NCBI GenBank assembly: GCA_024762925.1 | Contig: JANTGM010000063.1 | Location: 1-32,280, forward strand | Direction of reading: 5' to 3' | Length of the DNA: 32,280 bases | DNA from: Kofleriaceae bacterium | GTDB lineage: Bacteria; Myxococcota_A; Polyangia; Haliangiales; Haliangiaceae | Shown: positions 5,279 to 31,780 of the stretch, in pieces | Layout: every line of letters starts with the position of its first letter | How positions within the stretch are numbered: the first letter of the stretch is position 1 | The notes under the pieces: generated by a model | Database searches by the model: none | Seen by the model: only the letters and a program-made list of their open reading frames with translations | Told to the model about the DNA's origin: nothing | Position numbers and translations under genes: made by a program

Positions 5279-7885
5279 CTAGGTGTTTCTCTGAGCCGCG
5301 CGAAGGGCATCGATAAGTAGCTGCTGTCTCACGGGTTTTGCAAGGAAGTCTGATGCTCCTAGAGACTCCGCTCGTTTGCGGTTCTCGGCCGTGTCCTTTG
5401 ATGAGATAACAAGCACCCGCATCTGTGTTTGGCGAATGTATTTGCTCGCTCGAGTGAGAAGCGTAAATCCATCTTCTCCAGGCATCTCGAGATCGGTGAC
5501 CATCGCCGAGTAGCCTTGCTCCTGCAAACTCTGCCAAGCGCTTGCACCATCACTGGCTGTAACAACTTCGTAGCCGGCCTTGAGCAGCATGTGGCGCATT
5601 GCTTCGCGAATTGCTTTGCTATCGTCAACGACGAGAATGCGCCGAGCAACGGGAGGTTCCGCGGAATCCTGCCGAATGTCGGTGAGTTTCACAGGAGGTC
5701 CTGGATACGCGAGGTTGACGAGCGCCGCAGGATCGAGAATGAGTTGCACCTTCCCCGAAGGGCTTATGGTGCCGCCTGCGTAAAGCGGGATGCCTGCGAG
5801 CATAGGCCCCAGATTCTTGATGACGATTTCTCGCGCACCGATAATCCGATCGCAACTAATGGCGAGTCGCTTGCCCATGAACTCGAGCAACACGACAGGG
5901 CAGCGCCGCAGATTTGCAGGCATTGGGAATCCCAACAATTCGTGAAGCGGCACAAGGGGCAGGTCGCGGCCCTGGGCGTCGGGAGCGGTTTCGCGCAAAG
6001 GCAGCGCAATCTCACTTTGATCCAAGACATGCACATTCGATATGGCAAAGACGTGCCCACCAATCTTGAAGAGCATGGCGTTTGCCACCGCTGTTGTCAG
6101 CGGGAGCCGCATCGTGAATCGGGTGCCCAAGCCCGGTTGACTGGAAACCAAAACTTCGCCGCCGAGTCGGGTCACGGTTTGGCGCACCGTACTAAGACCC
6201 ACACCACGACCCGCCAGCTGATCCGTCGTCGAGCGCGAGGAGGTGCCCGCATCGAAAATCATTTGCAGCGTTCGCTCATCGCTGGCTTGCCGCGCTTGCT
6301 CTGTGCTCCAGCGTCCGTCTTGCACGAATCGCTTTCGTAGGTCGTCGGTTCGAATGCCAGCCCCATCGTCGCTCACCTCAATGACGACGACATTGCTCTC
6401 ATGTCTGGCCGTGACCATGATGCGCCCTTCGGCGCTCTTGCCATTCGCCTCCCGATGGGAAGGGCTCTCAATGCCGTGCACGACCGCATTGCGCAAGAGC
6501 TGAATGAGGGGGTCGACGAGCTGGTCGGCAACGGTCTTGTCGAACTCGGTTTCACCACCCGCGGTTACCAGTCGAACCTGCTTGTTGGTTTGCCGCGCCA
6601 TGGCCCGCAATTGTGGCGTTAGGCGGCTAAAGAGGGAGCGAACCGATTGCATGCGCACCGCTGTGAGGCCGTCTTGTAGTGCAAATTCGGTTCGTTTGAG
6701 AAGCGAGGTGTCGTCGCCAAGCCTGCCAAGCTCTTCTTCTAGGGCGGGCATGATTGTCGCCAGTCGACCTTCGATCTCGGCCAGAGCGGAACCCAATTGG
6801 TCCACGCGCACAGGAGCACCCGATTCGACCCAGCCGGCCCGCTGTGAGTTGAGCGTGTCCATCGCTTCACGAATTAAGGAAAGTTCTGATGCGAGCTTGC
6901 TTGCGCGCTTTTCGATCCGGCTGCGGTCAAAGACAAGCTCACCAACGCAGTTCATCAGACGATCGATGCGGCCAGGATCCACTCGCAGCATGGGGCTATC
7001 CACACCGCGCCGATCGGGGCGCCGACGCTCCGCGTAGCTCTGGTCTTTGTGCGTCTCGGTAATCTGCAGTGGCGGAACTTCGTCTGTTGGAATCTCGGAG
7101 GACGCAGCGTCGTCTGCCTTCGCTTTGCCGATGCCTGCCAGCCGTTCTCGGAGGCCCTCCACACCCGCGGCGGCTTGGTCCGGGCCGCTGGCGCTCGCGA
7201 TCGAGAGATGCATGCCATCGGCGATTTCGACGAGGTCGTCTCGCACACTGTTTGACCATTGACTCTGGCCTGTGCGGATGCGCTCGATGGCGCTCTCGAA
7301 CTCGTGAGCGAGGCTGGCGATCTGTGGCAAGTCCACAGTGCCAGCTGCGCCTTTGAGGCCGTGTGTGAGGCGCATCAGCTCGTTGAGTTGATCGTCGTCG
7401 GGCTTCCCACCCGTGTTTGCGATGAGAATTGCGGTGATTCGTTCAAGTCCCTCTCGAGCTTCTTCCCGAAAGATATTGAGAAGTGTTAGGTGCTCACCTG
7501 TGTCAAAACTGCTCTTGTTGCGGCGCGCCGTGCGATGCACCCGTGTTGGCGACGAATCTCCTATTGTTGGTGAATTGGGCTTTGAGATCGTCGGGGCATC
7601 TTCAGCGAACTCTTCGACAGCAGTGTCCTCTTCCGGGCGGAGCTGGGCCCCAAGAGTCTCTACGAATTGTTCTAAGGCGAGAACGCCTTCATCGCGGTGT
7701 GCCGTAATCTTCTCTGCAATGGATCGAACGTTGCGTTCGAGCTCCTCATCACCAACCAGCTGTGCTGCTCCAAAGAGGTCGTCGAGTTGACGCTCGCGCT
7801 CTGCATCGTTGCCGCTCTCTTGCCGCAAGGCTCCCAGCGCATGTCGCGCTTGGGTGAGAACAATATCCAGCAGACTATTCTTCAT
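5279..7885 (-). CDS. Hybrid chemosensory histidine kinase CheA with C-terminal receiver
   Basis: An 868-residue CheA-type kinase. Domain order: an N-terminal helical segment (1-85, perhaps a degenerate Hpt); an Hpt domain (about 130-230) with phosphoacceptor His175 in RLTHGLKGAAG; an acidic linker; a dimerisation/P3 region (303-430); a P4 ATPase with N box LLRNAVVHGIE (463-473), G1 DDGAGI (506-511) and G2 GRGVGLS (559-565); a CheW-like P5 domain (about 600-735); and a receiver (748-865) with Asp754/Asp755, phosphoacceptor Asp798 and Lys850. The long P3 insert resembles the ChpA/PilL/FrzE kind of CheA. The start overlaps the CheW gene by 11 bp, so they are cotranslated. It probably phosphorylates its own receiver and the upstream PATAN regulator. 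Confidence 0.95.
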   Translation of the reverse strand: MKNSLLDIVLTQARHALGALRQESGNDAERERQLDDLFGAAQLVGDEELERNVRSIAEKITAHRDEGVLALEQFVETLGAQLRPEEDTAVEEFAEDAPTISKPNSPTIGDSSPTRVHRTARRNKSSFDTGEHLTLLNIFREEAREGLERITAILIANTGGKPDDDQLNELMRLTHGLKGAAGTVDLPQIASLAHEFESAIERIRTGQSQWSNSVRDDLVEIADGMHLSIASASGPDQAAAGVEGLRERLAGIGKAKADDAASSEIPTDEVPPLQITETHKDQSYAERRRPDRRGVDSPMLRVDPGRIDRLMNCVGELVFDRSRIEKRASKLASELSLIREAMDTLNSQRAGWVESGAPVRVDQLGSALAEIEGRLATIMPALEEELGRLGDDTSLLKRTEFALQDGLTAVRMQSVRSLFSRLTPQLRAMARQTNKQVRLVTAGGETEFDKTVADQLVDPLIQLLRNAVVHGIESPSHREANGKSAEGRIMVTARHESNVVVIEVSDDGAGIRTDDLRKRFVQDGRWSTEQARQASDERTLQMIFDAGTSSRSTTDQLAGRGVGLSTVRQTVTRLGGEVLVSSQPGLGTRFTMRLPLTTAVANAMLFKIGGHVFAISNVHVLDQSEIALPLRETAPDAQGRDLPLVPLHELLGFPMPANLRRCPVVLLEFMGKRLAISCDRIIGAREIVIKNLGPMLAGIPLYAGGTISPSGKVQLILDPAALVNLAYPGPPVKLTDIRQDSAEPPVARRILVVDDSKAIREAMRHMLLKAGYEVVTASDGASAWQSLQEQGYSAMVTDLEMPGEDGFTLLTRASKYIRQTQMRVLVISSKDTAENRKRAESLGASDFLAKPVRQQLLIDALRAAQRNT

Positions 7886-8414
7886 GTGAAGCCACAGCCT
7901 GCAGCGCCAAGGAGCGATTGTTCATGGCGGCATCAAAGAGTTCTGGCGGATCCAAGAGAACGACGGGCCGATGCCGGGAATCGAGCAGCGCCCCCGTGCG
8001 TGAATCAGCGAGCAGCGAGGAGACCTCATCGATGGTGCCCGCACGAAGCGCCACTTGGCAGCGATCAACTTCGAGTAGGAGGGCGCTCTCACCTTTGCTT
8101 GCCTGCGCCAATCTGCTGCTCAGGCCACGGATGTCGAGAATCGATAGGATGGAGCCTCGGAAGTTTACGACCCCTGCGATGGCAGTTGGTGCATGCGGAA
8201 CAGGCGTCACATGTGCCAAGGTGAAGACCTCGCGAATCCATCCGAGTTCAACGGCATAGGCGGTAGACCCAATGCTGAAGACGATCACGTTTTTCATCTT
8301 CTTGCCCACGGCAAGGCTGACGGTACCGGTTTGCTTGCTAGGGGCCAAGGCTGGGGTCCGCCGAATCGAAGCGTTGGCGGGTGGTAGCAGCGATTGCCAT
8401 GCGGCCAAGGACAC
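7875..8414 (-). CDS. CheW-like chemosensory coupling protein
   Basis: The CheW fold begins at NVIVFSIGSTAYAVELGWIREV and continues through the conserved AIAGVVNFRGSILSILDI segment, so this is a CheW-domain adaptor that would bind the P5 domain of the neighbouring CheA and a receptor. The frame is open from GTG 8414 (179 residues), but the first 39 residues are Pro/Ala-rich with no CheW similarity. ATG 8297 (140 residues) is an equally possible start, and neither has a strong Shine-Dalgarno sequence. The gene sits between the PATAN response regulator and CheA on one strand, and its stop lies inside the CheA start region. Confidence 0.85.
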   Translation of the reverse strand: MSLAAWQSLLPPANASIRRTPALAPSKQTGTVSLAVGKKMKNVIVFSIGSTAYAVELGWIREVFTLAHVTPVPHAPTAIAGVVNFRGSILSILDIRGLSSRLAQASKGESALLLEVDRCQVALRAGTIDEVSSLLADSRTGALLDSRHRPVVLLDPPELFDAAMNNRSLALQAVASHEE

Positions 8415-8439
8415 GTAGCGAGCTCGCTTGGTGAGCGTG

Positions 8440-9876
8440 CTAGACGGCGATGGGCATCACCCGCTTGCGGATGAGTTTGATCGAGAGCAGGCGGAAGAGC
8501 ATCTTGCTCACTTCGTAGGAACCCATGCGCGACTCACGAATCAGTTCCTTGACGGTATTTTTGCCATTCACAAGCTCAAGCACGGTGAGCTCTTCGCGAG
8601 TGAGGCGGCCGCGCCCCATTTGCGCGACAGCGTCTTCGTTTCGAAGGAAGACCATTTCAAAGTCGTTGATCTCGCGCTCGATGAGATGCCATTCGTCCAC
8701 CCGACGAAACCCTTCCATCAAGATTCCTTCAACGTCGAGTCCGAGCATGGCATCGACCGCTACCGGTGGCAGGTCGCGTGTGCGGATAAACTGAAAGGCT
8801 CCAAAACTCCAACGCAGCACCTCGTAGGTGAGTTCGCGGGTTTGTTGCTGCAAGACAAGCTTGAGTTCGCTCTCGCTTATGTAGCCGAGCTTGACCAGCT
8901 GAGCACCGAGAAGCTTGGAACCTTGCCCGCGAGATTCTAGAAAGCCGCTGAGGTCTTCTTGGCTTATGAGTTCACTCTCGAGCATGTAGCGTCCAAGCAA
9001 GTACTCGTTGGAGAGCTCGCTAGCGATGGCCATATCTACGAGTCCATCGCGGAAGTAGACTTCGATCTTGGCCTCACCACGAGTGAGCTGGAGAATGCCT
9101 GATTGCTGTTGTGCATCTAGGAGCTGCAAAACTTCCGCGATTGGTATGATGTGCAAGTCGCCGCGTAGCGAGGGCCCCATTGCCGCTTCTTCGAAGGCAG
9201 GTTGGGCCGAGATGAAAAGCTGATGCAAGGTCTCGTCATCCAAGACAGAACGCGCTGCAGTGGCCACAGCATCGGTGTCGATGGTGACCTCGGTGTCATC
9301 TTTATCGTCTTCACCAGCGGCGCACACCAAACTCAGCAGTTCCGTGAGCCTCGGGGCAATCGCATCCGTAATGCGTTCACGCAGTTCTTGGAGCGCATGT
9401 TCCTTCGCCTCTTTGCCGACCTTGATCGCGCGTACTCCAGCTTCCGTGTCAGCTTCGGTGGTTTCGGTTAATGCGGATCGCGAGAGCGTGTCTTCGCTGG
9501 TTGGATACTTTGAGACGGTGTGTTGCACGACGGCCGTGATTGCTTCGGGAGAAAATGGTTTGGTGATGTAGTCGACGATTCCCATCACTTTGACGAAACG
9601 CTCGCCAACTTGATCGCCTTTGGCACTCATCAGCACGACTGGAATACTGCTAAGTTCATCTTCAGCTGCCAATGCGCGACACACCTGGTAGCCGTTCATC
9701 TTTGGCATCACGAAGTCGAGCAGGATGAGCCCGGGGAGATTTTTCCGGGCGAGTTCAAGTCCTTCCTCTCCGGTCTCTGCAATGTCGACGACAAAGCCGG
9801 CCTTGCTAAGCACAAGGTGCACCACCTTGAGGATGGTGGGGCTGTCATCAATAACTAAGACGCGTGGCGCCGTCAT
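8440..9876 (-). CDS. Response regulator with PATAN (DUF4388) output domain
   Basis: A 478-residue protein from ATG 9876; the frame stays open to a TTG at 9930 with no recognisable sequence, so the ATG directly before the receiver is preferred. Receiver residues 5-120 have Asp10/Asp11, phosphoacceptor Asp54 (LLDFVMP) and Lys106 (ITKPF). A charged linker (about 125-230) follows, then a PATAN/DUF4388 domain starting at LRGDLHIIPIAEVLQLLDAQ (near 238) and continuing to about 400. The C-terminus (405-478) is helical and winged-helix-like. PATAN domains serve protein interaction and occur in PatA-like regulators of cyanobacteria and in deltaproteobacteria. As first gene of the CheW/CheA cluster it is the likely output target of the kinase. 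Confidence 0.92.
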   Translation of the reverse strand: MTAPRVLVIDDSPTILKVVHLVLSKAGFVVDIAETGEEGLELARKNLPGLILLDFVMPKMNGYQVCRALAAEDELSSIPVVLMSAKGDQVGERFVKVMGIVDYITKPFSPEAITAVVQHTVSKYPTSEDTLSRSALTETTEADTEAGVRAIKVGKEAKEHALQELRERITDAIAPRLTELLSLVCAAGEDDKDDTEVTIDTDAVATAARSVLDDETLHQLFISAQPAFEEAAMGPSLRGDLHIIPIAEVLQLLDAQQQSGILQLTRGEAKIEVYFRDGLVDMAIASELSNEYLLGRYMLESELISQEDLSGFLESRGQGSKLLGAQLVKLGYISESELKLVLQQQTRELTYEVLRWSFGAFQFIRTRDLPPVAVDAMLGLDVEGILMEGFRRVDEWHLIEREINDFEMVFLRNEDAVAQMGRGRLTREELTVLELVNGKNTVKELIRESRMGSYEVSKMLFRLLSIKLIRKRVMPIAV

Positions 9877-10100
9877 CGTGGAACTTGGAACTTCTTGGTT
9901 TGTCACCGGACTGGAGATCTCCGCTTCCAACGCACTGTGAAGGAAGGCCCCGATCTTACGTCCTTGTGTCCTGAAAATTCAACGTGAGGGTGCGATGGAG
10001 AAGGGGCCAGACCTACATTGCATCCAATTTTGTTCGCAGCTCAGAAGTGGAGCGCTGGGGGGCTGCGTGATATCGTCGGTGCCTCAGCCAAGCTGAATTC

Positions 10101-19675: not shown

Positions 19676-20461
19676 CTAGAGGCCGCGCTCGTCAATTCGG
19701 CGGGCGCCTTCCATAAGAAGCGCTGTTGTGCTCGACTCAATCTCCGCCTCGCGCTCCACGGTGGCCGCCTCAAATGAGAAACGCCCATTCGACCACTCGA
19801 GGATGAAGTAGATGGCCAGTTCGTTGCGCGGCTCGTCCAAGCCGATGATCTCTGCCGCGATGGGCCGACCCTGTCGAAGGTAGAGCTTCGCCTCAACTTC
19901 GGTGTCACCCTCACGGATAACGGTGAGGACGCCATCCTTTCGATCCATATCCATCAGGACCAACAGTGATGAGACGCCGACTTCACTGAGGTTGCCTGCC
20001 AATGCGGCCCCCTCGCTCTCGCTCTCAGCGCGGCGTTTCGGTGCACCATTGCCTGCGATCTGCTGCCGTGCCGAGTTCTCAAGCCGCGAGGTTCGCTCCA
20101 TCGTCTTTGCAACCCGAAGGTCGAGCTCTTCAAAGCGAAAGGGCTTTGGCAGGTAGTCATCCGCTCCTAGGCGGAAGCCACGAATGCGATCGTCATCTGA
20201 GCCAAGTGCTGTCAAAAAGATTACGGGCATGAAGGCGCACTCAGGTCGGCCTCGCAGCGCTTTGACAAGAGACCATCCATCCATGTGCGGCATCATCACG
20301 TCTGTGATGAGTAGCTGTGGTGGGTCGGCCATCGCTTTCTCGAAGGCCTCTTCGCCATCGCATGCGGTCTCAACTTCGTAGCCGCGCTTCTCGAGGACCG
20401 TCGTGACCATGCGCAGGATCCAAGCATCGTCGTCGACGACTAGAATGCGTGGCTTCTCCAT
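19676..20461 (-). CDS. Response regulator with C-terminal PATAN (DUF4388)-like domain
   Basis: A 261-residue protein. The receiver spans residues 4-125 with Asp10-Asp12, phosphoacceptor Asp54 (LITDVMMP) and Lys106 (LPKPF). A short charged linker follows. Residues 150-258 begin LAGNLSEVGVSSLLVLMDMD and continue KDGVLTVI, a PATAN/DUF4388-like pattern similar to the one in the regulator at 8440-9876. There is no DNA-binding domain, so output is probably by protein interaction. No histidine kinase is adjacent; the partner may be the CheA in this window or encoded elsewhere. It is the last gene of a minus-strand run that starts with the CDP-alcohol transferase. Confidence 0.9.
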   Translation of the reverse strand: MEKPRILVVDDDAWILRMVTTVLEKRGYEVETACDGEEAFEKAMADPPQLLITDVMMPHMDGWSLVKALRGRPECAFMPVIFLTALGSDDDRIRGFRLGADDYLPKPFRFEELDLRVAKTMERTSRLENSARQQIAGNGAPKRRAESESEGAALAGNLSEVGVSSLLVLMDMDRKDGVLTVIREGDTEVEAKLYLRQGRPIAAEIIGLDEPRNELAIYFILEWSNGRFSFEAATVEREAEIESSTTALLMEGARRIDERGL

Positions 20462-22210: not shown

Positions 22211-22936
22211 CTACGAGCGAAAGCGACCCAAGCGCCAGGCAATGGCAAGGCCTGCTCGGCCGATATACAGTACATTTACCGCACCATAGGCCCAAAAATA
22301 GATGTCGATCCGGTCGAAGATCGCGACGATCCAAATGTACTGCGGGTAGTGCACAATCGACCTTGCCGCATGCTCCACCAAGCTTATCGCACCGCCACCG
22401 AGGCCTTGGCGCTTGGCGATGACAGCCGGTTGGCCATCCTTCGTTGGGGTCTGCCCACTGTACTCGGGGCGTCGCATGAACGAAGTTAGCGTGAGCCCTG
22501 TCGCGAGCGCGAACAAGAAACCAAGCCCATAGAGTAAATAGTGCTCATCGCCCGTGACGCGCCACATTCGAATCGTGACGCATCCAAAGATCAGCATCGC
22601 CTTCAGCTCGTCCATCAAGAAGTCGAGCAAATGCCCCAGGTGCGATGCGATGTTCTTGCACCGCGCCAACATGCCGTCAGAGCAGTCGAAGATGAAGCTT
22701 ATGTGGTTTACCGCCACAGCGGCAATGAGCCATGGATGGCCTGGGCCCAACGCAAAGATGGCTCCCGCTCCTGCTGCAATGATGAGTGAGAGAAACGAGA
22801 CCTGATTCGGGGTTATCGGCGTGCGGCGCAAAACGTAGACGAGGACCGCCGCAACAGGGCGACACAGCCACTCCGTGAACCAGTTGATGTCCTTTTTCTT
22901 CTTGCAGGACCGATAGATTTCGGCGATTTCGCTCAT
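22211..22936 (-). CDS. CDP-alcohol phosphatidyltransferase
   Basis: A 241-residue integral membrane enzyme that would move a phosphatidyl or related group from a CDP-alcohol to another alcohol in phospholipid or phosphoalcohol synthesis. The family motif D(x)2DG(x)2AR(x)8G(x)3D(x)3D is perfect at residues 84-109 (Asp84, Asp87, Gly88, Ala91, Arg92, Gly101, Asp105, Asp109). About five to six membrane helices surround it, and [10 protein letters not shown] is the usual entry to the first helix. The acceptor alcohol cannot be told from sequence. ATG 22936 is the first of the minus-strand operon that continues to 19676; its promoter must lie in the 215-bp gap shared with the giant TPR gene. Confidence 0.93.
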
Positions 22937-23151: not shown

Positions 23152-26100
23152 ATGCCAGAGCACACAATTCCCAATTCACTGGTCGAGAACATCCGTAATG
23201 GACGCGCCGCAATTATTGTTGGCGCGGGTATCGGCGCAGCGTCTTGGAAACAACTACTTGAGAAAATGAACACCGAGCTTCGTGCGCGGGGAGTGGAGGG
23301 CGACGAAGCCGCCGCCAAGGATGTCGACAAGCTTCTTCACAAGGGCAACATGGTCCGCGCCGCCGCCTTCTTGGGTCGGCAGCTTGGAAGTGAAGTTTGC
23401 GACAAGGTCGTAGCGGAGACATGGGGGGATTCAGGGGATATCCCCGAAGTTGCCAAGGCCCTCGCAGCGCTGCCGATGCGGCAGATGTGGACGACCTTCC
23501 CCGGTGATGTCTTGGAAAGGTCGATGGAGCAGAACCTGCCCGAAGATTGGCCGCTTCCAACCGTACTTACCTACAAGCAGGCCGGTGAAATCGACAAGCG
23601 TCGCCGAACCGTCTTGAAGGTGCTCGGCGATTTCGACTCGTTCATCGCTACACCAAAATCCATTCGCCAAGCGCTCTCCAATGCGGATGAGCTGCGCGAC
23701 TTTGTGCGCCCCTACTACGCGGAAGGTTCGCTGCTCTTTGTGGGCTTCCGCTACGGTGACCCCGACTTGGCAGCGCTCCTCGATCGCGTCTTCGGCTCGT
23801 TTGAGCCAACCGAGAGCGAGCACTTCATGGCATCGGCTGGCGTTGGCCCAGTAACTGTCGACGAACTCGCCTCTGAGCACCACATCACCGTGCTGAACCT
23901 GCCTGGCAAGGGCACTGACGAAGAGGCCAGTGCGGCCCTTCTCGAGCTTCTGGAGTCTCTTCGCAGCAAGTGCGAGGAAAGCGGTCTGAGTCTCGCGAAA
24001 ATGCGACCAGAGGCGGATGACCTCGAAGGCTGGATTGGAATCCTGCACGAGAACGAGTTTGACAAAGAAGCTCTCGAAGCCGTTGCCGCAATCGAGACGC
24101 AAGCCCGAGATGGGGAAAACTCTGAACGCCTCGTCGAAGTATTGATGCTTCGAATCGAACTGACCGGTGAGAGCTCCGAACGCGCCGCACTCTTGCGCGA
24201 AGTTGCCGGCGTCTTTGAGACATCGGAAGATGCAGCTGGCGCGTTTACAGCGTACACCGCAGCTTTGGGTGAAGACCCAAGTGAAGTGAGCGCGCTAGAA
24301 GCCGCAGAGCGACTTGCAGGCGAGATTGACGGTTGGGGTGAACTGGTTGCCGACGTTGGATCCGTGGCCGGTGAAATTGCCGACAAGAAACTTGCCGCGA
24401 TCTACTACGCCCGTCTCGGTCATTGGTACCACCGCAAGCTCGACCATATTGACTACGGAATTGCCAGCTACCGTGAAGCGCTTCGCCGCGACCCTGAGTT
24501 GCTCGATGCCTACCAGGGCTTGGGAGAGGCCTACCGAGTGCAACAGCGCTGGGGAGAGCTTGCCGATCTCATTGATGCTCAGCTTGAGCACACAACCGAT
24601 GTCGAGGCGAAGTTCGACTTGTACCTGGCCATCGCCGACATCTGTGAGTCACAACTCGCATCAACTCCGCGCGCTATCGACGCGTATGAAAGTGCACTGG
24701 CTCTCGACACCAATGTTGAAGACGCCTTTGTGGCCCTTGAACGCCTGTTCCGACAGAGCGAGCACTGGGGCAAGCTCGCCAAGGTGCTCGAACGCAAGGC
24801 CGATTTCCTTGAGAAGTCGGGCAATGCCGCCCAAGCAACTCAAGTCCGTCGCGACATCAACTCGATGCGTGCCGACAAGCTTGGCGACTTGGAAGGCAGC
24901 ATCGGTAAGCACGAATCTGCACTCAAAGCCGATCCAAACGACATAGAAGCGCTGCAAGCGCTCGAGGACCTCTACGACAAGTTGGGTCGCACCGAGGACT
25001 ACCTCAATGTGCTCACCACACTCGCCAAAGTGTCACCGGACGAAGAGCGTCCTGCTCTCTTGCGCCGCCTCGCGATGGAACTCGAAGAGCAAGAGGACGG
25101 CCAAGCTGCAGCAATCTCAGCTCTCACCCAACTCATCGATCTCGACTCGGAAGCGCAAGACGCATATCGCTCGCTTGAGCGTCTGCACCGCGATTCCAAA
25201 GACTGGCAAGGGCTGGTCTCGGTTCTTGAGCGCCACGCGTTTGTTGAGAAGAACCCCAGTGAGCGCACGATCATCAATATCAAGATCGCTGACGTTCAGG
25301 AGACGGAACTCTCCGATCCACATCGTGCCGTCGAAGCCCTGGAGAGTGCCATCTCCGATAGCCCCGATAACGTCGATGCGATGAGCGCACTGGCTCGCAT
25401 GTACAAGCGCACCGAAGCCTGGCAACAGGCGGCGGATATGTTCGCTCAACATGCCGAGCATCTGGGAAAGGCGGGCGCCGCACAGTGGGCACACGCTGGT
25501 CACATTGCTTTCGACAATCTGCAAGATGTCGAGACTGCACGGCAGTACCTTGAGAAGGCGCTGGAGCTGAGCGCACACAACCTCGAGGCACTCACGTGCT
25601 TGGCTCGTCTGCACAAGAGCGAGGGAGCTTGGGAGAGCGCCATCAACCGCATGGTGGACGCCGCTGATGCCAGCGCCAATCGCCTTGACCGCGTTGCGCT
25701 GCTGCAGCAAGCGTCAGCGCTCTGCGAGAGCAAGCTTGGTGATGCAAAGCGCAGCCTGAATCTCCTCCGTCGTGTGCTTGAGGTCGATCCCGAGAACCTC
25801 GAGGCTGGCCTGCAAATCGCTGAGAGCTTGGTTTCTGCAGAGCGGTGGCGTGAAGCGCTGCCGGTTCTTGAGATGGTTGTTCGACGCACCGATCCAGAAG
25901 ACCGTGTCGAGTTGTCGGCACGGAGCATGGAAGTGGGGCGCATTTGCACCCAGCTTGGCGAGCACGACAAGGCGGAAGAACACCTAAGTAAGGCTGTCGA
26001 ACTCGATCCGCAATCTCTCGATGCCGCACTGGCACTCGGTGATGCACTCTTCGCTGCTGCATTGGCCGAGAAGGAGAACGAACGCTGGCTTCGCGTGGAC

Positions 26101-27990
26101 AAGCACTATCGCTCCATGCTGGCTCGGCATCGCTCGGGACTCGCCGATAGCCAGGTTGTCGACCTGTGGCACCGCCTTGGAGTCACCGCTCAGCATCTCG
26201 GCGACGCGGGCAAGGCCGAGGCCGCGCTACGCCGTGCCCTCGAACGCGATTCTGGCCACGACCAGTCCCTGCGAAGCCTTGCAGAACTCGCCGCTGGCAA
26301 AGAGGATTGGAAGACCGTGGTTGCGTGCAAGCGCGACCTACTCGACTCGCTTGGCGAGGAGGAGCGTTGCACCGTGCTTGAGGAAATCGGTGACCTCTGC
26401 CAACAGCAGCTCAATGATCCTGAGACGGCTCTTGGGGCGTATCTCGAGGCTAGCCACTTAAAACCGAAGTCGCGGAGGCTTCTGCACAAGTCGCTTGAGC
26501 TCCTTACGGTGCAGAAGCAATGGCGGCAAGCGGTGGATGTCCTCGACGCTCTGTCGAAGTCAGAAACTGCGCCAACCCGTCGAGCTAAGTTCCATTACAC
26601 GGCGGCTGTTATTTGTCGCGATGAACTGCAGGATGCCGATTTGGCCGTCGAGTTCTTCACTCGAGCGCTCGATGATAACCCCGAAACCGACAAGGCGTTT
26701 GATGCCATCGACAAGCTTCTATCCTCCAAGGGGGATTGGAAGGCACTTGCCCGCGCACACAGAAAAATGCTGAAGGCGATTGGCGAAGACAGCCCAGAAG
26801 ACCTGCAGCTTCGTCTGTGGACACGGCTCGGCGACATTTGCTCAGAGCATCTCGGCGATTCGGCTCAGGCGATTACCGCTCTCGAAGTGGCAACGTCTCT
26901 CGACCCGAGTGATATGGGGCGTCGTGAGCAACTAGTGAACCTCTACCTCGAAGCCGGCGATCGACGTGATGACGTAATTGAGGAGCTTCAAGCGCTCATC
27001 GCCGCGGACCCGGATCGCGTCGAACTCTACAAAGTGCTCAGCGAGCAGTACCGAGCTCAGGGCGAGACCGACAAGGCCTTCTGCGTGGCACAGGCGTTGG
27101 TCTTCCTCAAGGCTGCCAATGAAGAAGAGGGCAGCCTCTTCAAGTCAGCCAAGCCTCAGTCGTTTGTGGCTGCTAAGCGCCGACTCACCGAGGAACTCTG
27201 GCAAAAAGCTGTCATTCACAATCGTGAAGACCGCCACGTCAATGCCATCTTCTCGTCCATTATCGGGCAGGTTGCCGCAACAACAGCTCAGCCGCTCAGC
27301 GCCTTCAACTTTGATGGCAAGAGCGTCTCCGACGATGGCTCGACCATCTCTAAGGTGTTCCGATACGCAAGTGGCGTGTTGGGACTTTCCCCAGAGCCAA
27401 CACTCTTTGTCGAACCGGAGAGTGGAGAGGGCTTGCGGGTTGCAAACACCGTTGCTGAGGGCAAGCTTCGCCCAACGCTGGTGGCCGGAAAGCCACACGC
27501 AGCCAAGGGGAGCGAAGCGGAACTCGCTTTTGAACTCGGAAAGCGCATGGCGTACTTCCGACCAGAGCGATATCTCAACTTCGCACTACAGACCTTGCCA
27601 AAGCTCGAGGGAGCCTTCTACGGAGCCCTCGACGCCGCCGGCAAGACTGTCGAAGGTCATGCCAATGGCACGATGAGCGCGCAGCTAAAGAAGAGCGTTC
27701 CAACCGCAGTTCTTGAGCAGGTCGGAGTGGTTGCATCAAAAATGCACATCAAACCCAGCAACGGCGTCATCTCCGGGTGGCGCTCGGCAACTGACCTTAC
27801 AGCAAATCGCGTTGGCCTCATCTTGTGCAACGACTTGCAGGTCGCGGCACGTTCGGTGGCAACGGAGAAGTCCTCGCAAAGCACACTGAGTGCGAAAGAC
27901 CGTTTGCGTGACTTGTTGGCTTACTCGGTTTCCGAGGAGTACTTCGCCGTGCGCAAGCACTTGGGGCTGGGCATCGACGCCAACTCGTAG
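23152..27990 (+). CDS. Giant protein: degenerate SIR2-like domain, about 30 TPRs, degenerate M48-like domain
   Basis: A 1612-residue protein without a signal peptide. Residues 10-270 align by eye with SIR2_2-like NAD+-binding domains: LVENIRNGRAAIIVGAG, a short loop, TTFPGDVLE, LKVLGDF, LLFVGFRYGDPDL, then HITVLNL. The active-site residues are replaced: GAGxS plus GxP is GAGIG without GxP, TTNYD is TTF-PGD (Phe116 for Asn), and LHGD is VLGD (Leu158 for His). Residues 290-1390 are TPR pairs, with Trp at 395, 467, 539, 685, 757, 827, 899, 1053, 1124 and 1196 marking units of about 72 residues. Residues 1400-1600 resemble an M48 peptidase with FELGK (1460-1464) in place of HExxH and D1548-x3-N1552 in place of ExxxD. 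ATG 23152 has GGGAG upstream. Likely a cytoplasmic scaffold; the function is unknown. Confidence 0.85.
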   Translation: MPEHTIPNSLVENIRNGRAAIIVGAGIGAASWKQLLEKMNTELRARGVEGDEAAAKDVDKLLHKGNMVRAAAFLGRQLGSEVCDKVVAETWGDSGDIPEVAKALAALPMRQMWTTFPGDVLERSMEQNLPEDWPLPTVLTYKQAGEIDKRRRTVLKVLGDFDSFIATPKSIRQALSNADELRDFVRPYYAEGSLLFVGFRYGDPDLAALLDRVFGSFEPTESEHFMASAGVGPVTVDELASEHHITVLNLPGKGTDEEASAALLELLESLRSKCEESGLSLAKMRPEADDLEGWIGILHENEFDKEALEAVAAIETQARDGENSERLVEVLMLRIELTGESSERAALLREVAGVFETSEDAAGAFTAYTAALGEDPSEVSALEAAERLAGEIDGWGELVADVGSVAGEIADKKLAAIYYARLGHWYHRKLDHIDYGIASYREALRRDPELLDAYQGLGEAYRVQQRWGELADLIDAQLEHTTDVEAKFDLYLAIADICESQLASTPRAIDAYESALALDTNVEDAFVALERLFRQSEHWGKLAKVLERKADFLEKSGNAAQATQVRRDINSMRADKLGDLEGSIGKHESALKADPNDIEALQALEDLYDKLGRTEDYLNVLTTLAKVSPDEERPALLRRLAMELEEQEDGQAAAISALTQLIDLDSEAQDAYRSLERLHRDSKDWQGLVSVLERHAFVEKNPSERTIINIKIADVQETELSDPHRAVEALESAISDSPDNVDAMSALARMYKRTEAWQQAADMFAQHAEHLGKAGAAQWAHAGHIAFDNLQDVETARQYLEKALELSAHNLEALTCLARLHKSEGAWESAINRMVDAADASANRLDRVALLQQASALCESKLGDAKRSLNLLRRVLEVDPENLEAGLQIAESLVSAERWREALPVLEMVVRRTDPEDRVELSARSMEVGRICTQLGEHDKAEEHLSKAVELDPQSLDAALALGDALFAAALAEKENERWLRVDKHYRSMLARHRSGLADSQVVDLWHRLGVTAQHLGDAGKAEAALRRALERDSGHDQSLRSLAELAAGKEDWKTVVACKRDLLDSLGEEERCTVLEEIGDLCQQQLNDPETALGAYLEASHLKPKSRRLLHKSLELLTVQKQWRQAVDVLDALSKSETAPTRRAKFHYTAAVICRDELQDADLAVEFFTRALDDNPETDKAFDAIDKLLSSKGDWKALARAHRKMLKAIGEDSPEDLQLRLWTRLGDICSEHLGDSAQAITALEVATSLDPSDMGRREQLVNLYLEAGDRRDDVIEELQALIAADPDRVELYKVLSEQYRAQGETDKAFCVAQALVFLKAANEEEGSLFKSAKPQSFVAAKRRLTEELWQKAVIHNREDRHVNAIFSSIIGQVAATTAQPLSAFNFDGKSVSDDGSTISKVFRYASGVLGLSPEPTLFVEPESGEGLRVANTVAEGKLRPTLVAGKPHAAKGSEAELAFELGKRMAYFRPERYLNFALQTLPKLEGAFYGALDAAGKTVEGHANGTMSAQLKKSVPTAVLEQVGVVASKMHIKPSNGVISGWRSATDLTANRVGLILCNDLQVAARSVATEKSSQSTLSAKDRLRDLLAYSVSEEYFAVRKHLGLGIDANS

Positions 27991-28934: not shown

Positions 28935-28962
28935 TGGCCCCAAATTGTGGGGCCACACTTTT
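28935..28962 (+). terminator. Rho-independent terminator after the DUF4215 lipoprotein gene
   Basis: A perfect 8-bp GC-rich stem TGGCCCCA / TGGGGCCA with the loop AATTG is followed by CACTTTTA. It lies 52 bases past the lipoprotein stop and before the next gene's likely start. It closes the TPR/lipoprotein transcript and argues that GTG 28947, inside the hairpin, is not a start codon. Confidence 0.7.
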
Positions 28963-28979
28963 ACGAGTATCATTGTCGC

Positions 28980-30788
28980 GTGATACTGCGGATTTGTGGA
29001 GGAACGAGGGGCCTGGCACTGGCAGCTCTCTGTGTTGGCGCCCTTGGCTGTGGGCCGCGCTCTTCTGCGAAGACGATGCTCGAAGTTGAAGGGGGGAATG
29101 ATAGCGATGTTCGCTACAACGATCGCGACCCGCTGCTTCCGCCCGCGAAGCTCCAGTCGGGCGCGCCAGACGCGGAATATCTGAAGGCCGTAGCCGAGGC
29201 AATTCAGCCCGCCTGGTCGAGCTTTCTCGAAGACTGCCGGGTGCGATTGCCTGCAACCCACGACCTCAACAACAGCTCGCTTGTGACAGAACTTGTCCTA
29301 GTGATGAATCGTGAGGGGACGGTTCTCGAAGTTCGGCCATCCAAACCTAGTGGCAACGCGGAGTTTGACCAAGTCGCCCAGGAAATCACTGGCGAGCTCG
29401 GCGCACTGCCAAAGCCGCCGATGACACGGCTCTCCGATGATGACCGCGTCTATCTCGTTTGGAGTTTTGCGCGTGATAGGCGTCAGGCTGGACCCGCTAC
29501 AGCAACCTGGAAGCACGTTGAACTGCCGCTTGCCCAAGCGCTTCCAAAGCTGCTCGAGGGATTGCAGTTCGCGACAGCCACGCAGCGAGTGATGGACTCA
29601 AACGGCACGCTCGCTGATAAGGCCGGCTTGCTTGCTCAGGTCGCAGTCTCGGTTGTCGGTGATGGCCTGCAGCGCACAGAACCAGAGCTCCAAGCGCTCG
29701 CATTGCACACTGTTGGGGCCGCGCGCCTAAAACAGTACCTGCCACAGGCAAGGCTCGCACTGCGTTCAACGGAGCCAGCGGTGTCGGTGGCGGCCATTGG
29801 CGCCCTTGCAGCAATCGGCGAACGAAGTGACTCAGAACTTCTCTCAACGTTCGCGCATGGAGCATCGGGCGTTAGTGCACAAGCGAGTTCGGCCGCTGCT
29901 CTCGCCGTTCAGACGCTTGGGCAGGGGCCGGCCGTCAGCACGCGCGCGATTGCAGATTTGGCGAGCGGAAATGGAGAGGCTCGGCACTCGGCGCTCGCTG
30001 TTCTCTCCGTTTTGCCCGCAGTAGATTCCGTTGTTCCGCTCTCCTCTTTGATGCTAGGCAAGCGCAAGGCATCGCGCGCCGAGAGGACCGCCGCTGCTGC
30101 TGCCTTGGGGCGACAGGCATCAGAATCGAGCAAGGCCGTCAAAGCGCTGCTATCAGGAACCTCTGATGGCGATGCTTCGATCCGGATAGCGTGCACAAAC
30201 GCGCTCGCCAAGGCTGCCCACAATGGGCTTCGCAGTCGCGTTGCCTATTGGCGAACCCTTGAGCTACTCAAAGACAAAGACGAGCGAGTTCGTGCTGCCG
30301 CAGTCTTGGCGGCCGCTGCGCTCGACACAGGACGGTTTGGCAAAGAGCTGTCGGCGATTCGTGCGGGCGGTTCAAAGCTGGTCCTCTTGAGCATCGCTGA
30401 GGCGCTCGCAGAAATCCCCGGCCCAGTCGCGCTCGAGCGCTTGCTCGACCTGTCTAGCGTTGCCGATGAGAGCATGCGAATCTGGGCCGCCAAAGGGCTC
30501 GCGAAGCGAAGCGAACCAAAGGCAAAGAAGGCACTGCTCATCCTGTTGGGAGACGAATCGGCCGAGGTTCGAGGCACTGCCATCGCAGGTGTTGCCGACA
30601 GCAAGGACATCACACCGCTTCTGGACGATGCCTCGGCACTGGTGCAGGCACGCGCATTGGCGGTGCTGACAAAGCGCGAAGGCCGAAGCCAAACAGCCTC
30701 GTCGCTGGCGGGGGTACTCACCATGCCTGATCTCGACCCGCTAACACAGCTCCTCTGGGTTGATGCCTGGCTCACAAGCGGTAAGTGA
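28980..30788 (+). CDS. HEAT-repeat lipoprotein with TonB-C-like segment
   Basis: A 602-residue protein from GTG 28980, which opens directly into a lipoprotein signal peptide (ILRICGGTRGLALAALCVGALGC, lipidated Cys near residue 24). The longer frame from GTG 28947 starts inside a terminator hairpin. After a linker, roughly residues 90-150 (LVTELVLVMNREGTVLEVRP, then FDQVAQEITGELGALPKPP) match the TonB C-terminal pattern. Residues 180-600 are alpha-helical HEAT-type repeats: VSVAAIGALAAIGERSDSE, ERVRAAAVLAAAALDTG, ESMRIWAAKGLAKRSEPKA and VRGTAIAGVADSKD. No catalytic motif is seen, so it is probably an envelope scaffold. It precedes the FGE-like gene by 14 bp. A GTATCA...TGATAC inverted repeat (28967-28986) lies at the start. 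Confidence 0.82.
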   Translation: MILRICGGTRGLALAALCVGALGCGPRSSAKTMLEVEGGNDSDVRYNDRDPLLPPAKLQSGAPDAEYLKAVAEAIQPAWSSFLEDCRVRLPATHDLNNSSLVTELVLVMNREGTVLEVRPSKPSGNAEFDQVAQEITGELGALPKPPMTRLSDDDRVYLVWSFARDRRQAGPATATWKHVELPLAQALPKLLEGLQFATATQRVMDSNGTLADKAGLLAQVAVSVVGDGLQRTEPELQALALHTVGAARLKQYLPQARLALRSTEPAVSVAAIGALAAIGERSDSELLSTFAHGASGVSAQASSAAALAVQTLGQGPAVSTRAIADLASGNGEARHSALAVLSVLPAVDSVVPLSSLMLGKRKASRAERTAAAAALGRQASESSKAVKALLSGTSDGDASIRIACTNALAKAAHNGLRSRVAYWRTLELLKDKDERVRAAAVLAAAALDTGRFGKELSAIRAGGSKLVLLSIAEALAEIPGPVALERLLDLSSVADESMRIWAAKGLAKRSEPKAKKALLILLGDESAEVRGTAIAGVADSKDITPLLDDASALVQARALAVLTKREGRSQTASSLAGVLTMPDLDPLTQLLWVDAWLTSGK

Positions 30789-30802: not shown

Positions 30803-31780
30803 ATGCGTCGGTCACTCATGCGAATGGCTCTCCTCATTGCAGGAGTTGCTGGAGGCGCGACGATCGAGAGCAGCGCTGGCGCCAAGCCCGGCTCTGTGCA
30901 AATTCTCGCTCACCAGCCAAGCGAGATGGTCTTTGTAGGCAGTGGTGAGTTTTCCATGGGAATGCCCGAGACCGAGAAAGAACTCGATTTCTTCATTCGG
31001 CTCTGCGTTAGCGACTTTCGCCGAATTGCATCGCGCTTGTGCACGCAACAGCTCACCACGATTCCCTCGCGAGGTGCGCGCTCTGTCGAGGTCTCCAGCT
31101 TCTACATTGATCGCCAAGAAGTGCGTGTTAGAGACTATCGCCGCTGCGTTCGCGCGGGTGTCTGTGATGTTGATCCGCTGCTTTTTGGCGACCAGCGGTA
31201 TCACGAGGATGCGTTTCCTATCGTCAACGTAACCTGGAATGACGCCGTTACCTACTGCGGCTGGCGGCATGCGAGGTTGCCAACCGAAGCGGAGTGGGAA
31301 AAGGCCGCTCGTGGGCCAAAGAGTCTCCGGTTTCCCTGGGGAAACCGCTGGGCCTCCGGTAGCGCAAATCATGGGCAGCTTAGCTTTCAGTTGGAGTTCC
31401 AGCTTCTGGCTGAGCCACCGGATCCGGCCTCCTTGTACAACCTTCACAGTCTCGGTCTGTATGCTGCCGATGGCAGCGATGGCCACGAGTATGTGAGCAT
31501 CCCAGGAGCTCAGGTCTGGGGAGCGAGCCCATACGGCGCTGTGGACATGGCGGGCAATGTCTCCGAGTGGGTGGCCGACTACTTTTCAGCTGAAGGCTAC
31601 AAGGGGCTTCCCGATGCCGACCCGGTGCGTGATGTTCCGCTCAATAACGAAAAATCTCGCGCAGTTAGGGGGGGATCATGGATGGCGCCCCGCACACTCT
31701 TGCTCAGCTACATCCGCCAAGGAGCACCAGCAGACGAGCGTTCCTACCTGCGCGGATTCCGATGTGCCAAGGACCGTTAG
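30803..31780 (+). CDS. FGE-sulfatase (SUMF1)-domain protein, not a genuine FGE
   Basis: A 325-residue exported protein with a signal peptide at 1-25. The formylglycine-generating-enzyme-like fold is clear: EMVFVGSGEFSMGMPETE, SSFYIDRQEVRVRDYRRCV, FPIVNVTWNDAVTYCGW, RLPTEAEWEKAARG, YGAVDMAGNVSEWVADYF, RAVRGGSW and RGFRCAKD. Genuine FGE uses two active-site cysteines in GGSYMCHKSYC-like sequence. Here the matching positions are Ala295 and Leu300, so sulfatase Cys oxidation is not expected. Such proteins often act in other roles, as with kinase-linked or EgtB-like members. It follows the HEAT lipoprotein by 14 bp and is probably cotranscribed with it. Confidence 0.9.
   Translation: MRRSLMRMALLIAGVAGGATIESSAGAKPGSVQILAHQPSEMVFVGSGEFSMGMPETEKELDFFIRLCVSDFRRIASRLCTQQLTTIPSRGARSVEVSSFYIDRQEVRVRDYRRCVRAGVCDVDPLLFGDQRYHEDAFPIVNVTWNDAVTYCGWRHARLPTEAEWEKAARGPKSLRFPWGNRWASGSANHGQLSFQLEFQLLAEPPDPASLYNLHSLGLYAADGSDGHEYVSIPGAQVWGASPYGAVDMAGNVSEWVADYFSAEGYKGLPDADPVRDVPLNNEKSRAVRGGSWMAPRTLLLSYIRQGAPADERSYLRGFRCAKDR

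Follow-up and report, generated by a model that had tools for sequence, protein, structure and literature searches.

To our knowledge, bacterial SIR2_2 domains have been studied almost only as immune effectors that destroy NAD+. SIR2 enzymes ancestrally possess the Asn/His pair, and systems such as DSR2, KomC, Avs5, SIR2-APAZ and SIR2-HerA have the patchy distribution that goes with defence. In DSR2, four residues (N, Y, D and H) make up the catalytic pocket (PMC11263360). The use of inactive domains as sensors is a known principle in multicellular bacteria, as exemplified by inactive STAND modules (PMC8195603), and giant TPR proteins have been described among the myxobacteria: GltI/AgmK of Myxococcus xanthus, 4132 aa long and without a signal peptide or membrane segment, belongs to a group confined to myxobacteria and their relatives (PMC3169522). 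A search of the open-access literature found no description of an inactive SIR2-TPR family in myxobacteria, absence being weak evidence in such a case.

The gene considered here lies in a 32,280-nucleotide stretch of myxobacterial DNA, which was analysed as a whole and is referred to below as the window. Its features and neighbours are collected in Table 1. Searches with the protein sequence itself matched the open reading frame in 43 of 56 relatives, and wherever the contig was long enough the matches were mostly open frames of about 1620-1690 aa; orthologues of equal length across many genomes rule out a chance frame or a frame artefact. No signal peptide was seen by eye in the protein. The fusion of the N-terminal domain to a TPR scaffold, part of the first-pass annotation of this DNA, was upheld by Pfam, which places many TPR families above cut-off downstream of the domain; an NCBIfam scan gave generic TPR models only, all below cut-off. 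A scan for promoters and terminators returned nothing above chance.

Table 1. Positions of the gene, its domains and motifs, and the neighbouring genes within the window
Feature	Position	Strand	Evidence or remark
CDP-alcohol phosphatidyltransferase (phospholipid synthase), divergent upstream neighbour	22211..22936	-	close to the gene in 25 of the 69 further clade loci whose flanks are long enough
Whole gene: pseudo-SIR2 domain, TPR array, C-terminal domain	23152..27990	+	ATG start, 1612 aa
SIR2-fold domain, catalytic residues lost, residues 1-285	23152..24006	+	PDB profile, AlphaFold2, fold match
GAGIG nucleotide-binding loop, residues 24-28, Ser replaced by Gly, next loop 4 residues shorter than in ThsA	23221..23235	+	alignments
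WTTFPGD in place of TTNYD, residues 113-119	23488..23508	+	alignments; F116 codon 23497-23499
LKVLGD, residues 155-160	23614..23631	+	alignments; L158 codon 23623-23625, in the catalytic His position
GFRYGDPDL, retained SIR2_2 hallmark, residues 198-206	23743..23769	+	G198, D203 and D205 invariant in the alignment (domain + 37 homologues)
TPR array, about residues 286-1317	24007..27102	+	Pfam TPR families
C-terminal domain (residues 1318-1612); M48/gluzincin-like fold predicted, zinc motif absent	27103..27987	+	AlphaFold2, fold comparison
ELAFELGKRMAYFRPE, residues 1457-1472, helix taken as the putative HExxH-helix equivalent, motif absent	27520..27567	+	suggested by order of elements and folds
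Lipoprotein-like protein, Cys-rich myxobacterial repeat, starts 8 bp past the stop codon	27998..28882	+	relative in 25/61 loci with enough flank
TonB-C-like + HEAT-repeat protein, lipoprotein-like N-terminus	28947..30788	+	relative in 14/51 loci with enough flank
FGE-sulfatase (SUMF1)-like protein, signal-peptide-like N-terminus	30803..31780	+	relative in 14/32 loci with enough flank

The first 285 residues of the protein have the SIR2 fold. Pfam SIR2_2 (PF13289) matches residues 125-229 with 36.3 bits against a cut-off of 24.5, and the PADLOC models for ThsA match residues 8-226 (1.8e-13). A 38-member profile, composed of the domain and 37 homologues, found ThsA as its best match in the PDB (E 3.1e-33), followed by KomC, DSR2 and human FAM118B. 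The AlphaFold2 model of the domain (pLDDT 89.9, pTM 0.89) gave ThsA, DSR2 and KomC as its top fold matches, with a Z of 22.9 and an rmsd of 2.8 A over 251 residues against SeThsA (7uxt), so that SIR2 is also the best structural match, in keeping with what had been read from the letters. The fold does occupy the span of roughly 270 residues first assigned to it, the one adjustment being that the domain ends nearer residue 285 (24006), slightly past the 23970 proposed at that time.

What the domain lacks is the machinery of a SIR2-type NADase, and neither the catalytic Asn nor the catalytic His is present. In the profile-to-PDB alignment, ThsA N112 aligns with F116 and ThsA H152 with L158, which confirms the earlier reading that Phe116 stands for the Asn of TTNYD and Leu158 for the His of LHGD. 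If anything that reading was conservative, since TTNYD has lost its Tyr and its Asp too (F-P-G), and Asn112/Tyr113/Asp114/His152 of ThsA are represented in the window protein by Phe116/Pro117/Gly118/Leu158. Misalignment at positions 116 and 158 is ruled out by the agreement of the profile-to-PDB and family alignments. The GAGxS loop is likewise reduced to GAGIG, as had been noted, and is four residues shorter than in ThsA: it reads "GAGIG-AASW" in the window protein and "GAGLSMSVGYVSW" in ThsA, and it is "GSSIGSFAGMPSW" or "GAGLGTAAGRPSW" in those members of the order that lack the deletion. Elsewhere in the class several members have lost GAG itself (GSSI, GVRF, GSIF).

Loss of these residues extends well beyond a single genome. 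A profile match of some kind was found in 82 of the 144 genomes of the class. The TPR-type group numbers 73 domains, which come from 13 different families, and 58 of these domains share a reading frame with the C-terminal domain; the remainder mostly run into a contig end or have split frames. Not one of the 73 keeps both Asn and His (Asn is kept in one, His in five), and the claim that a non-enzymatic copy has been conserved thus holds when homologues are compared at positions 116 and 158. Of the SIR2_2 segments found in the class outside this group, 32 in all, 21 retain both residues. The TPR-type domains form one branch (SH-aLRT 99), within which they mostly cluster according to host family, in a quick tree with SH-aLRT as its only support measure and some long branches, such as that of the paralogue L035, which makes its inner details unreliable. 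The absence of the pair from all 73 domains, together with their position on a single branch, argues for a loss common to the whole clade that would most simply have happened once, many parallel losses being less parsimonious; the direction, loss and not gain, rests on the ancestral state of the pair and not on a root inferred by the tree method.

The gene is near-universal in the order to which the window belongs, and near-universal and usually single-copy in its own family. It is under purifying selection: comparison with the same-genus orthologue L054 gave dN/dS values of 0.107 for the SIR2 part, 0.106 for the TPR part and 0.081 for the C-terminal part, rough figures only, as dS is 1.5-2.1 and near saturation. 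All told, the protein is in all likelihood a long-conserved, clade-wide non-enzyme and probably an assembly or sensing platform.

A scan of genome contigs found two loci only. The one other SIR2_2 match in the genome is a paralogue that is likewise degenerate. This second, fast-evolving copy (L035:3145-7866 (-), on contig C2 of G000) encodes 1573 aa, scores 44 bits with SIR2_2, reads TTSLG for TTNYD and LFG for LHG, and adjoins a cysteine/cystathionine-synthase-like gene; it was not found in two same-genus genomes, both of which are incomplete. The genome also has two classical sirtuins (PF02146), a family present in 10 of 14 control genomes. In large genomes of the class, SIR2-like genes also occur as pairs (L114:2862-8828, L117:2865-8822, L118:2272-8240, L120:2807-9430), in which a member of about 1120-1520 aa without Asn and His lies beside a neighbour of 465-480 aa with TPNLD and HG or NG; these could be pairs of a dead and an active protein.

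The C-terminal 295 residues make up a domain that is present in 144/144 genomes of the class and 75/140 of the phylum, often in several copies per genome that include paralogues of 3500-4200 aa. TPR giants carrying the domain were seen at L134-L137, L139, L143 and L144, beside rsmI-like genes in L135 and L136. A profile of the domain found nothing significant among PDB sequences or in Pfam. Its AlphaFold2 model (pLDDT 91.0) had no Foldseek match with E below 0.001, with metallopeptidases (MATCAP, Ste24/ZMPSTE24) ranking high in the list, and VIA-align placed BepA first (Z 8.7) and the M48-type peptidase 3c37 next (Z 8.6) in a list led by zincins. HExxH is absent at the aligned helix, and two other HExxH strings occur among 96 domains. 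We hold with moderate confidence that this predicted fold represents a second dead enzyme domain; against that reading, the fold match is itself only moderate and in fact borderline.

In other lineages the same chassis of TPR array and C-terminal domain carries different N-terminal modules, namely a Ser/Thr kinase, EAD7 plus kinase, or a receiver plus DUF4388, so that the N-terminus seems to be a slot into which modules for signalling or sensing are fitted. Some of the kinase-headed proteins (open reading frames of about 1770-1815 aa at L146, L147, L148, L150 and L152) appear to have Arg in place of the VAIK Lys (YRLRVL in L146), and these are possible pseudokinases. One kinase chassis (L161:1654-6987 (+)) has in front a match to the effector-associated EAD7 of 26.9 bits, below the Pfam cut-off of 32. 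The receiver plus DUF4388 head belongs to one chassis paralogue (L141). Near the gene, the window itself encodes a CheA-like kinase (5279-9930 (-)) and a receiver plus DUF4388 protein (19676-20461 (-)). As a tentative picture, in which we have rather less than even confidence, these proteins would make up a myxobacterial family of giant modular pseudoenzyme scaffolds that share a TPR and dead-peptidase-like chassis and exchange signalling heads, one of which would be a domesticated, dead SIR2 of the anti-phage type, serving core envelope biology or signalling and not defence.

The surroundings of the gene bear on its role. Within the order the same neighbours turn up at most loci, and they do so in some of the class as well; outside the order their conservation fades. 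PADLOC gave only generic domain matches on the neighbours, and the Pfam and PADLOC scans of these genes showed no adjacent thsB (TIR) gene. The setting is that of a core genome region tied to the envelope, not of a defence island.

On balance we lean towards a cytosolic, non-enzymatic scaffold whose SIR2 fold serves assembly or recognition and not NAD+ hydrolysis. Sequence, tree and fold together show that the SIR2 head comes from ThsA-like SIR2_2 proteins and had already lost the Asn/His pair when today's families of the clade split from one another; selection would have kept the fold for something other than NAD+ hydrolysis. That use may be assembly into oligomers or filaments, a remodelled pocket that recognises a protein or ligand, or both. 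We infer oligomerisation because oligomers or filaments are known for the SIR2_2 domains of ThsA, KomC, FAM118B and Avs5, according to the titles of their PDB entries. The TPR array would hold client proteins, and the pseudo-peptidase-like domain at the C-terminus would bind a polypeptide and not cut it. The conserved lipoprotein neighbourhood and the adjacent phospholipid synthase gene suggest that the protein may help to build the cell envelope or to monitor it. That said, the synteny may reflect slow rearrangement.

Conservation of the pocket raises another reading, in which the remodelled site acts as a sensor that binds NAD+, ADP-ribose or some other nucleotide without hydrolysing it and relays its state through the TPR array. 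Among 22 near orthologues, drawn from the two closest families, G24-A25-G26, F116-P117-G118-D119, L158 and G198 to D205 (except 201) are invariant, and invariant residues are enriched in the pocket motifs (23/44, compared with 59/241 in the rest of the domain; p 4e-4), the pocket set being one that we chose from known SIR2 motifs. The site is therefore not drifting. Cryo-EM structures show NAD+ still bound to DSR2 H171A (PMC11263360), and the signalling modules on the chassis of other lineages would suit a sensor as well. On the other hand, ThsA N112A and H152A show no NAD+ binding in solution (PMC7272460), and a phosphate-binding loop that is four residues shorter, with GAG lost in several class members, is unexpected for a conserved NAD+ site. 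Because the ThsA mutants fail to bind and the GAG loop is shortened or lost, the odds of canonical NAD+ binding are lowered; binding by the window domain may be possible but is disfavoured, and we regard the sensor as unlikely, if still worth serious thought.

A role in anti-phage defence, in which the dead SIR2 domain would sense or sequester either a signal derived from NAD or a product of the phage, appears improbable. Its closest folds are the anti-phage proteins ThsA, DSR2 and KomC, the PADLOC ThsA model matches, and EAD7, weakly matched in one chassis relative, was named from conflict systems. Yet the gene shows no patchy distribution in defence islands: throughout the order it is nearly always present and is inherited vertically, it is syntenic with envelope genes, and the defence matches of its neighbours are to generic domains. 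A scan of viral contigs, run with one pattern only, found no C-terminal domain in them. The link with anti-phage systems hinted at by the first-pass annotation is accordingly not supported so far.

That the domain is still an enzyme, with a different chemistry or with activity only beside a partner in the manner of FAM118A/FAM118B, is more doubtful again. Five class members keep His with Gly for Asn, showing that the site may survive in part, and FAM118B activity requires FAM118A; but each FAM118 partner needs its own Asn and His (PMC12700824), all four DSR2/ThsA pocket residues (N, Y, D, H) are replaced in the window protein, and a search of the same genome for an intact SIR2_2 gene as a complementing partner found none. 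The scarcely credible notion of a decaying relic of a former NADase, its SIR2 part functionless, accounts for the missing catalytic residues and is ruled out by a dN/dS of about 0.11 in the domain and by invariant motifs, the replaced motif among them, as retention across 13 families and a SIR2 identity above that of the TPR part in every pair compared also argue.

Set beside known systems, the non-enzymatic scaffold that we favour is closest to ThsA, the Thoeris NADase, which shares the SIR2 fold over the whole domain and is the best match by both profile and structure. ThsA retains N112 and H152 and ends in a SLOG domain, whereas the window protein lacks the N, Y, D and H, has a shortened GAGxS loop, and consists for the rest of a TPR array and a pseudo-peptidase-like domain. 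For annotation this is a warning, as PADLOC-type profiles match the protein to ThsA, yet neither an NADase nor a defence role can be assumed from the match. DSR2, KomC, Avs5 (SIR2-STAND), SIR2-APAZ and SIR2-HerA resemble it in having the same SIR2 fold fused to, or in complex with, large helical or sensor modules; they differ in being NADase effectors with catalytic residues intact. Human FAM118A and FAM118B are SIR2_2 relatives (profile E 1.4e-14, Z about 18) and filament formers, but both carry the Asn and His required for activity (PMC12700824). SAMD9 and SAMD9L combine a variant Sir2-like domain with TPRs (PMC5445408) and match in fold (Z 11.9); unlike the window protein, where none was seen, they also have AlbA_2, a P-loop NTPase and an OB fold.

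The rest of the protein has parallels of its own. GltI/AgmK is similar in size to the paralogues of 3500-4200 aa that carry the C-terminal domain, a likeness that serves as a lead only. The M48 peptidases (BepA, Ste24, 3c37) and the minigluzincins are candidate fold relatives of the C-terminal domain, on a moderate and borderline match of its predicted fold (Z 8.7 to 6), and differ in that HExxH is missing at the aligned helix of the window's C-terminal domain. If the tentative picture of a modular pseudoenzyme scaffold family is true, that family uses a domesticated immune-type head outside defence. An inactivated SIR2_2 domain, clade-wide and long conserved, also provides a clear test of what the SIR2 fold does without the chemistry, be it assembly, ligand sensing or protein binding.
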